Source: a virus
Strand: one strand, 5' to 3'
DNA: 35,450 nt
Virus record (IMG/VR): IMGVR_UViG_3300013306_000036
Coordinates: 1-35,450 of that record
Below, one piece after another: positions 31,485-32,824 of this stretch; within the stretch, counting starts at the first letter, position 1, and the number at the start of each line of letters is the position of its first letter. A program made the position numbers and the translations under genes. The notes below the pieces were generated by a model. It had not been told where the DNA came from and did no database searches. It saw only the letters and a list, made by a program, of their open reading frames with translations.

Positions 31485-31531
31485 GAGCTGGAATAACGCG
31501 CCAGCCCTCGCGGTTTTGTGGCATCCGCCAC
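31485..31531 (-). repeat. Leader RNA element, copy F (two hairpins)
   Basis: On the minus strand HP1 (31518-31531) is GTGGC-GGAT-GCCAC. HP2 (31485-31507) is GGGCTGG with CCAGCTC around a 9-nt loop CGCGTTATT. It lies between the stop at 31539 and the start at 31468 and is nearly identical to copy E over about 57 bases, differing by one inserted base. Confidence 0.75.
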
Positions 31532-31538
31532 GCTTGAG

Positions 31539-31748
31539 TTACCAGACGCAGTTTGACTCATCAAAACACGCCGCCGCATAATCCCGCGATGCCTGCAATC
31601 CGCAGTCCTCACGCATACATAGCGCGGATTGTGACGAGGGATAATAAAAAATCCGCTCACCCTTAAGAATCCGCTTGCCACACTTGGAGCACGAGGGAAT
31701 AGTCCGCGCCGTTATCCAACCAGGAGACGCCAGCCGACGAGCCGCCAT
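31539..31748 (-). CDS. Zinc-ribbon-like protein, 69 aa
   Basis: ATG 31748, one base after the upstream stop, has GGAGGTGG upstream; a longer Arg-rich N-terminus lies inside the upstream gene and is rejected. SCSKCGKRILKGERIFYY and ALCMREDCGLQ supply CxxC...CxxxxC, a zinc ribbon. The C-terminus has further Cys residues. A possible role is nucleic-acid or protein binding. Confidence 0.6.
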   Translation of the reverse strand: MAARRLASPGWITARTIPSCSKCGKRILKGERIFYYPSSQSALCMREDCGLQASRDYAAACFDESNCVW

Positions 31749-31749
31749 G

Positions 31750-32505
31750 TTAAGCCACCTCCGAATGAGCCGCCGCCGCCGCCGCATCATCCAACGCCCG
31801 CTCCGCCTCGCGCGCGATCCGAGCCGCATAGTTATCAATCGAACCTTGAGCCCACTCGCGCCGCTCTACCGCTTCAACCACGTAGCGGCAGCATTGGAGA
31901 GCGGAGCGGAGCTGGGAATTTTTGGCATAGTCCCCGCCGAAGAACTCAGGGAAACCCTCCCCAATTTGTACATATTTGGGTTGAGCATCCGCCCAGGACT
32001 TAACCGCCTCCGCCATTTGGAACGAATCGAACATGGAGGCATACGAGGTATTGACCAGACGGAAGATTGACGCGCGCGAACCGTCCGCAGAATCACGTAT
32101 CTCTTCAAACCGCTTGTCATGCTCTTTTGTCCGCGTCCCCATTTTCAAAAGTGTCATGGAGTAATAACGCCGTTTCTCCCAGCTCCGATCCGACTCGCGC
32201 CAGACGACAGACGCCGCAAACGCGATCCTATCCGCCGTTGTATCGTGCCGCAGGGAATAAGCCGCCGTCCGCGCCAGCTCATCATTTGCCATCATAGCGA
32301 CAGCCAGGGATGCCAGATAATCCGTCAGAAAATCAAACGTAACGTTCCAGTCCCCGCTATGCTGTGTTAGACCGTCCCCGTACGTTTCAAACTGGCGAAA
32401 ATACTGATTTGTTTCAGTGGACTTGACCGACCAGACAGACCGATCAAAAGCGTATCCATACTTTTGAGGATGCGCGACAGATGCGAACTTGAAAAACTCC
32501 GACAT
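31750..32505 (-). CDS. Hypothetical protein, 251 aa
   Basis: ATG 32505 is preceded by the two-hairpin leader (copy E) and AGAAGG. The protein begins MSEFFKFASVAHPQKYGYAF and is rich in aromatic residues and helices, with two Cys together (LQCCRYVVEAVE) and an Ala-rich C-terminus (LDDAAAAAAHSEVA). No family was recognised. It is the largest unknown gene of the minus operon. Confidence 0.65.
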   Translation of the reverse strand: MSEFFKFASVAHPQKYGYAFDRSVWSVKSTETNQYFRQFETYGDGLTQHSGDWNVTFDFLTDYLASLAVAMMANDELARTAAYSLRHDTTADRIAFAASVVWRESDRSWEKRRYYSMTLLKMGTRTKEHDKRFEEIRDSADGSRASIFRLVNTSYASMFDSFQMAEAVKSWADAQPKYVQIGEGFPEFFGGDYAKNSQLRSALQCCRYVVEAVERREWAQGSIDNYAARIAREAERALDDAAAAAAHSEVA

Positions 32506-32518
32506 AGCGAAACCTTCT

Positions 32519-32564
32519 GAGCTGGAATAACGCGCCAGCCCTCGCGGTTTGTGGCATCCGCCAC
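32519..32564 (-). repeat. Leader RNA element, copy E (two hairpins)
   Basis: HP1 is at 32551-32564 (GTGGC-GGAT-GCCAC on the minus strand). HP2 is at 32519-32541 (GGGCTGG/CCAGCTC, loop CGCGTTATT). It begins a few bases after the stop at 32569 and ends just before the ribosome binding site of the 251-aa gene. Confidence 0.75.
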
Positions 32565-32568
32565 GCTT

Positions 32569-32763
32569 TTAGAACTCAGAGCAGCAGTCCGAACCCTTGT
32601 CAAACATGCAGCCACACTCACGGCATTTAATCTGGTCAATCCATTCCCCAGACTCTTCATCCCAGCGAGACCGCGAACGCCGACAGCCGGTTTCATGGCA
32701 GAAGACTCCGTTAATCATTAGAGCCTCGCAGGAATCACAGCGAAAGAGTTTAATCCGCATCAT
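32569..32763 (-). CDS. Small double zinc-finger protein, 64 aa
   Basis: ATG 32763 (or the next codon, 32760) has AAAGGA upstream; translation from the ATG in the leader hairpin would add MPQTARTGALIQSKGFLK. LFRCDSCEALMINGVFCHET, then GCRRS, and IKCRECGCMFDKGSDC give two sets of CxxC-type ligands (CxxC...CHxxxC and CxxCxC...C). The product is probably a small zinc-binding regulatory or adapter protein. Confidence 0.65.
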   Translation of the reverse strand: MMRIKLFRCDSCEALMINGVFCHETGCRRSRSRWDEESGEWIDQIKCRECGCMFDKGSDCCSEF

Positions 32764-32778
32764 CTTGAGAAATCCTTT

Positions 32779-32824
32779 GGACTGGATTAACGCGCCAGTC
32801 CTCGCGGTTTGTGGCATCCGCCAC
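32779..32824 (-). repeat. Leader RNA element, copy D (two hairpins, covarying)
   Basis: HP1 is at 32811-32824. HP2 at 32779-32801 is GGACTGG/CCAGTCC around CGCGTTAAT. Compared with copies E and F, the third pair is A-T instead of G-C, and the second is G-C instead of G-T, so pairing is kept while sequence changes. It lies directly after the stop of the gene at 32833. Confidence 0.75.

Follow-up and report, generated by a model that had tools for sequence, protein, structure and literature searches.

A probable small pseudoknot element ahead of internal genes in phages with few or no proteins in common

Small H-type pseudoknots lie close to the Shine-Dalgarno sequence in the preQ1, SAM-II and SAM/SAH riboswitches. 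In phage T4, gp32 binds a pseudoknot of about 28 nt located 5′ of its own gene, according to the parts of two reports used here (PMC535899, PMC3014915), one of which presents, in those parts, the gene 32 pseudoknot of T4-type phages as possibly the sole viral use of this fold for translational autoregulation as of 2010 (PMC3014915). As described there, the gene 32 operator of T4, T2 and RB69 serves one gene, is bound by that gene's own SSB, is followed by a stretch of more than 40 nt that contains UUAAA repeats, and has its start codon 67 nt away (PMC535899, PMC3014915). STAXI, in the portion of its description used here, is likewise a small pseudoknot near antirestriction and DNA-handling genes, and occurs as 2–3 tandem repeats, often with UUCG loops (PMC2864571).

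We analyzed a virus record of 35,450 bases, referred to in its whole length as the window (IMG/VR IMGVR_UViG_3300013306_000036). Terminase, portal and head genes lie on the plus strand of this record, and its minus strand has an early block that consists of a clamp loader gene (A), ArdC (B), the 61-aa gene C, genes D, E and F, and a DUF2958 gene. The leaders of D, E and F contain an element that recurs in other phages and whose consensus is an H-type pseudoknot, CGCG-N-GGYYGG-CGCG-UNAU-CCRRCC, of 25–30 nt. Like the gene 32 operator, it lies in a phage mRNA leader between two genes and has the form of an H-type pseudoknot of about 28 nt. Unlike that operator, it precedes many unrelated genes, the Shine-Dalgarno, where present, lies mostly within a few nucleotides of the knot, and the start codon follows mostly after 10–22 nt, a distance that leaves no long unstructured UUAAA-rich segment. 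Nor is there an SSB gene downstream, as no match to Pfam or PHROG was obtained for D, E or F and the genes of the other carriers differ. In contrast to STAXI, there is one knot per leader, with no UUCG and no match to the STAXI Rfam model (cmscan), and the small riboswitches differ from the element in that it matches none of their Rfam models and its downstream genes do not belong to one pathway. Indeed, Rfam 15 (4227 models) gave no match on the element, either in the window at gathering thresholds, in positions 31440-32850 at E ≤10, or in loci L027, L032, L068, L080 and L072 at E ≤5. The motif thus matches no Rfam family and is new to the public RNA library; we found no account of it in the open literature, which was searched largely without full texts.

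The three leaders share one order, namely hairpin 1 (GTGGCGGATGCCAC), AAACCGCGA, stem 2, the loop CGCGTTAWT, stem 2′, the Shine-Dalgarno and the ATG (Table 1). The seven-pair second stem and conserved loop of the original prediction were therefore present, on the minus strand, as were the two differences between D and E/F (a double change turning A-T into G-C, and a change of G-C into G-T, neither of which disrupts the pairing) and a linker, CCGCG(A), whose CGCG is able to pair with the CGCG of the loop. When the motif CTGGCGCGTTAWTCCAG was searched for with up to three mismatches, exactly three matches were found in the window, all of them D, E and F, against 0.32 expected in shuffles, and none of 100 shuffles reached three. 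Copies E and F are identical across the whole element, pointing to a recent duplication, so the window holds two distinct sequences and one double change, and its covariation alone is thin evidence. The single-strand folding stability of the leaders is unremarkable (z-scores of −1.30, −0.40 and −0.35 for D, E and F). As for the genes, the double zinc finger of D is a reading from its cysteines, made without a Pfam match. Homologs of gene E were found only in G013 and G024 (48–52%), both of which are without the pseudoknot element at that place; by its own sequence it had no relatives in IMG/VR or in cultured phages. Gene F had no homolog among the 18 other phage records searched.

Table 1. Coordinates of the leader hairpins, pseudoknots and genes in the window.
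Feature	Position	Strand	Details
Hairpin 1 variant, copy A	35303..35316	-	GCGGC-GGAT-GCCGC; promoter-proximal, before clamp loader
Hairpin 1, copy B	34598..34611	-	promoter-proximal, before ArdC; without pseudoknot
Hairpin 1, copy C	33035..33048	-	promoter-proximal; without pseudoknot
Hairpin 1, copy D	32811..32824	-	GTGGC-GGAT-GCCAC; downstream of stop codon of 61-aa gene C
Hairpin 1, copy E	32551..32564	-	4 nt past stop codon of gene D
Hairpin 1, copy F	31518..31531	-	7 nt past stop codon of 69-aa gene
Stem 2 with loop, copy D	32779..32801	-	GGACTGG-CGCGTTAAT-CCAGTCC
Stem 2 with loop, copy E	32519..32541	-	GGGCTGG-CGCGTTATT-CCAGCTC
Stem 2 with loop, copy F	31485..31507	-	GGGCTGG-CGCGTTATT-CCAGCTC
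Pseudoknot D	32779..32806	-	S1 CGCG 32803-32806; L1 A 32802; S2 GGACTGG 32795-32801; S1′ CGCG 32791-32794; L3 TTAAT 32786-32790; S2′ CCAGTCC 32779-32785
Pseudoknot E	32519..32546	-	S1 32543-32546; L1 32542; S2 GGGCTGG 32535-32541; S1′ 32531-32534; L3 TTATT 32526-32530; S2′ CCAGCTC 32519-32525
Pseudoknot F	31485..31512	-	S1 31509-31512; L1 31508; S2 GGGCTGG 31501-31507; S1′ 31497-31500; L3 TTATT 31492-31496; S2′ CCAGCTC 31485-31491
Gene D	32569..32763	-	64 aa; ATG 32763, 15 nt past S2′; Shine-Dalgarno AAAGGA
Gene E	31750..32505	-	251 aa; ATG 32505, 13 nt past S2′; Shine-Dalgarno AGAAGG
Gene F	31199..31468	-	89 aa; ATG 31468, 16 nt past S2′; Shine-Dalgarno AGAAGG

To collect homologs we scanned IMG/VR with patterns, judging which elements were real from stem pairing and position relative to open reading frames. 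The looser pattern returned 60 stretches, with 16 loci resembling intergenic elements, while the stricter one returned 17 stretches, 15 of these 16 intergenic or leader loci (all except L032, which falls outside the stricter pattern) plus two within genes. Outside the window, the exact motif CTGGCGCGTTAWTCCAG occurred in IMG/VR at four loci (L008-L011), all inside genes, which we read as chance matches. A covariance model, R1, was then seeded with seven 30-nt copies chosen from the loci judged real. Over 34 sources it gave 23 matches of at least 20 bits, with none between 18.7 and 20.3 bits, and recovered further copies that had escaped the patterns (L091 in G024 and second copies in L080 of G019 and L068 of G017). 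Over 21 whole records, most of them picked for carrying the element, 16 had a match at E ≤2e-5 and the other five (G020-G023 and G025) none better than 0.017; among the six records picked by their clamp loader alone (G020-G025), a canonical copy was found in one, G024. In the L051 contig (G014, 68,976 bases) the R1 matches lie in mirror-image pairs about the middle, and the assembly has probably duplicated a sequence of about 34.5 kb.

The covariation predicted for the second stem was borne out well beyond the three window copies. The model-based alignment contains 19 rows, 16 of them distinct, and is fitted to stem 2, which favors that stem; in it, four of the six pairs vary (CG/UA/UG, CG/UG, GC/AU/CG and GC/GU). 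Among the distinct rows 99.4% of stem 2 cells are paired, against 95.2% in shuffles; eight cells are changed on both sides, against 2.2; and the covariation score is 0.199, against 0.107, with none of 500 shuffles reaching the observed value in any of the three measures. Neither the number of pairs nor that of pair types changed on both sides was exceptional, 138 and 125 of the 500 shuffles, respectively, reaching the observed value. Sliding the partners of stem 2 against each other gave pairing of at most 45.9%. Copies E and F, L036, L045 and L091 have G-U in place of G-C or A-U, pairs that would be mismatches in DNA, and the orientation of the element relative to the downstream gene is constant wherever such a gene was found. 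Both observations speak against a site acting at the DNA level, such as an operator, a cruciform or a mobile repeat, to which the near-identical copies across unrelated phages and the palindromic S2 might otherwise point, and we regard such a site as very improbable.

Moreover, the fold could be sought without reference to the motif. In 19 records we examined 1116 start sites that have both a Shine-Dalgarno and a stop codon upstream, looking for a knot 8–22 nt before the start. An H-type knot of at least 9 bp preceded 15 of these sites, whereas 20 dinucleotide shuffles gave a mean of 2.2 and at most 7; at 10 bp there were 13 against 1.0, and at 11 bp or more, 7 against 0.2. Ten of the 15 sites are canonical copies, two are in G021/G022, one is in G020 and two are in G007. 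The two in G007 may be chance matches, and so may the one in G020, whose homologs are without a knot.

Whether stem 1 forms as well is a separate matter. Its CGCG/CGCG is invariant over the 16 distinct rows of the core alignment, so the case for S1 pairing rests on divergent copies. In G021 and G022, which are near-identical and were counted once for stem 1, the sequence AACCGGCGCGCTGGCCGTCTCCAGCGC follows a homolog of the 50-aa gene of the related record G001, at the place where G001 has the element before the next gene, and it pairs as CGG/CCG plus GCGCTGG/CCAGCGC. We also scanned with AACC and stem 2 fixed and stem 1 left open. This returned 29 stretches with 23 distinct sequences, five of them canonical and all CGCG/CGCG; among the 18 non-canonical ones, a different perfect 5-bp stem 1 was found in two, against about 0.13 expected. 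These are CCCCC/GGGGG in L221, located 8 nt past a 70-aa ORF and 9 nt before an ATG, and AACCG/CGGTT in L224/L232, located 30 nt upstream of an HU-type gene that has a Shine-Dalgarno (chance of 0.006–0.008 each). A plain second hairpin consisting of S2 only, with the CGCG conserved for some other reason, would fit the invariance of S1 in the core rows as well as two copies that have S2 without S1, namely a 7-bp stem 2 before a 102-aa gene in G024 and an S2-type hairpin before a start codon in L223. Given that S1 is re-paired in G021/G022, L221 and L224/L232, and that the loop lengths fit an H-type knot, we consider a plain hairpin quite improbable. Plain folding favors S1-only or S2-only hairpins in some copies, with z-scores near zero. 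The pseudoknot between linker and loop, part of the original prediction, is thus well supported by the pairing patterns in the divergent copies but not proven, with the constancy of S1 in the core and its absence from the G024 copy and L223 on the other side. We conclude that the knot is probably the usual form of the element, though it may be dispensable. The element as a whole is dispensable too, as shown by the gene E orthologs of G013 and G024 that are without it.

The position of the element is also constrained. Among ten stand-alone copies in which an upstream ORF of at least 45 aa allowed the distance to be measured, S1 begins 1–11 nt past the upstream stop codon in nine, the exception being G011 with 33 nt. 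This count leaves out L213, a doubtful copy from a host, as well as G017b and G019a. The distance is longer where hairpin 1 stands in between, at 22–26 nt in the window and in the second copy of G019, and 66 nt in G001. From S2 to the start codon there are 10–22 nt, except in G018 (31 nt) and in G010, for which no near start was found. An element of mRNA stability, in which the knot halts exonucleases once the transcript is cut between cistrons and thereby shields the message on its downstream or upstream side, would be in keeping with a compact, GC-rich structure 1–11 nt from a stop codon and with the G010 copy, as well as with hairpin 1, which elsewhere lies close behind promoters and in one relative directly follows a type II hammerhead match. 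Since the S2-to-start distance is tighter than exonuclease blocking needs, we hold this explanation to be unlikely. Two further candidates were rejected: a pseudoknot for stop-codon readthrough or frameshifting, because the frame between stop and start varies between copies (in frame in G009, G013, G014, D and E; out of frame in G024, G007, G008, G015, G018, F, G001 and the second copy of G019), and an intrinsic terminator, because S2′ is followed by a Shine-Dalgarno or a spacer and not by a T run. The downstream genes are varied, including a Cpn10-like gene (Pfam, above cut-off), an HU-type gene for a divergent copy and, as judged by eye, primase-like, HTH-like and small unknown genes. No clear Shine-Dalgarno follows several copies (G007, the G008 family, G015 and L221). 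The knot might replace that site, but in G015 Shine-Dalgarno use was 7 of 30 starts against 5 of 30 in the control, so such sites are few there anyway.

Hairpin 1, in turn, occurs both with and without the pseudoknot. Scanning for it returned two loci, among them L007 in G001, a 43.5-kb relative whose clamp loader and DUF2958 proteins are 71% identical to those of the window. In G001 hairpin 1 precedes the clamp loader, ArdC and the 50-aa gene, and the leader of a 126-aa gene has hairpin 1 plus a stem 2 variant, GGGTCCGG/CCGGCC, with one bulged U. Across 13 related records we counted 37 sites (74 on both strands), against 12 in reversed sequence (both strands), and the change of the stem from GTGGC/GCCAC to GCGGC/GCCGC preserves pairing. 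Among the 30 coding-strand copies located before a Shine-Dalgarno, 17 had a promoter-like −10 upstream, five had a pseudoknot downstream and none had both, by an ad hoc promoter pattern written after the leaders had been inspected and with one further, chance-like match in G013 excluded. All five copies followed by the pseudoknot were thus without a promoter-pattern match, and it never followed the 17 promoter-linked ones. In all three window leaders, D, E and F, the gene before ends 4–8 nt 5′ of hairpin 1, which leaves no space for a promoter between its stop codon and the hairpin. Hairpin 1 alone marks promoter-proximal starts; the pseudoknot marks internal ones.

Several other features of these leaders were recorded. 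Hairpin 1 is a leader hairpin of a phage clade, close behind promoters (window 34598-35316 on the minus strand, L012, L080, L032 and L087-L090), and its loops across the clade are ggat, ggtt, gctg, tgat and aatt. Just 5′ of the −10 in clade promoters is a palindromic, operator-like box, for example CTCCATCATGGAG and GGCCTCGGGATCCGAGGCC (window 33055-33090 and 34619-34660, L088 around 850 and L090 around 810), possibly the site of a phage regulator. The hammerhead match, at 947-1018 of L032, scored 35.1 bits (gathering 37), directly 5′ of the hairpin 1 leader. Hairpin 1 contains GGCGGATG at window positions 32817, 32557 and 31524 (minus strand); the ATG inside it is in frame with gene D in copy D (82 aa versus 64) and out of frame with genes E and F in copies E and F. 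A further leader hairpin, located toward the opposite end of these records, precedes a Shine-Dalgarno and shows the compensatory changes CTACTCG/CGAGTGG and CTATGCG/CGCATGG (G001 41601, G019 39406, G021 minus-strand 39497 and G022 40258). Finally, a 22-bp tandem repeat, CGCCTGCGGATGCCCAGCGAAC, at 35388-35450 reaches the end of the window record; in L012 the corresponding site 5′ of the clamp loader is occupied by a different repeat array.

To see how widely the element is spread, we compared the ORFs of its carriers (BLAST, E 1e-4, with G018 outside the comparison). They fell into clade 1 (13 records, the window among them), clade 2 (G008, G012 and G016), clade 3 (G007 and G015) and G010, between which few or no ORF families are shared; none occurs in every group. 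With G018, which stands outside the protein comparison, the element is found in at least five phage groups with few or no common proteins. When applied to 257 Gb of genomes from bacteria and archaea (GTDB), the stricter pattern matched 35 stretches, of which one, L159, is a leader element; it lies on a phage-like contig of clade 2 that was binned to an Acidobacteriaceae MAG and is nearly identical to phage L041 around the element. Host genes were rejected as its source, given that one of the 35 genome matches lies in a leader and that L139 and L158, although they have a 6-bp S2, lie inside long open frames. Six of 250 Acidobacteriaceae genomes had a model match at E ≤0.001, L159 and L213 being element-like and L214-L217 not. 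The major head protein of clade 1, searched against 250 genomes for a host, gave one weak match; the one binned contig only hints at Acidobacteriaceae as hosts of clade 2. In cultured phages a 30-base query gave no more than partial matches, and plasmids searched for the element gave no match.

Taken together, structure and phage-wide distribution very probably make this a functional RNA element. What it does is less certain. By analogy with T4 gp32 (PMC535899, PMC3014915, in the parts used), it could be an operator at which a phage- or host-coded RNA-binding protein, or a ligand, represses the downstream gene and co-regulates D, E and F. The conserved unpaired letters (AA before S1 and UNAU in L3) and the number of copies, three in the window phage and two each in G017 and G019, would suit an operator; the genes downstream are, however, unrelated between phages, and a common phage-coded partner is unlikely because no ORF family is shared by clades 1, 2, 3 and G010 at the threshold used, which would miss remote homologs and leaves G018 aside. 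We therefore rate an operator as rather unlikely. Co-regulation of D, E and F, as originally suggested, agrees with their common module and the lack of room for promoters, while the unrelated genes elsewhere and the lack of a carrier-wide protein family do not indicate a dedicated regulator; their control by a specific factor is possible.

We tentatively lean toward a portable gene-start module, through which the ribosome or another host factor might set the independent translation of internal cistrons, although we would not put this above even chances. An element that is phage-specific but independent of lineage is more likely to have the ribosome, a nuclease or another host factor as its partner, and we infer that it acts on the ribosome during initiation or translation, or on some host factor, rather than through a phage-specific regulator. 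By folding on the 5′ border of the 30S binding site, the pseudoknot would keep the Shine-Dalgarno region open. It would thereby separate initiation at the internal gene from ribosomes finishing the preceding one, giving the internal gene its own fixed translation level; in the window, D, E and F, having no promoter of their own, would be served by the knot together with hairpin 1. The G010 copy, with no near start, and that of G018, with 31 nt, run counter to a gene-start module and would be compatible with a function at the 3′ end of the gene before. Also on the opposing side are the copies that have no clear Shine-Dalgarno, the constancy of S1 in the core rows and its absence from the G024 copy and L223, the plain-folding results, and the gene E orthologs that do without the element. 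A bolder and less probable version, for which we would allow something like one chance among several, is that unrelated phages have put a phage-specific portable knot between cistrons. This knot would act directly on the ribosome or on a conserved host factor and would insulate the translation of internal genes, or set its level, with no need of a phage regulator, in some phages even for genes without a clear Shine-Dalgarno.

If true, this would be a bacterial viral translation element with a role comparable to that of small eukaryotic viral translation elements. A pseudoknot of 25–30 nt that is repeated within a genome and common to unrelated phages and genes suggests a general-purpose RNA part. 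Moreover, the element is small enough for a two-gene reporter, so that the setting of translation in packed phage operons becomes testable.
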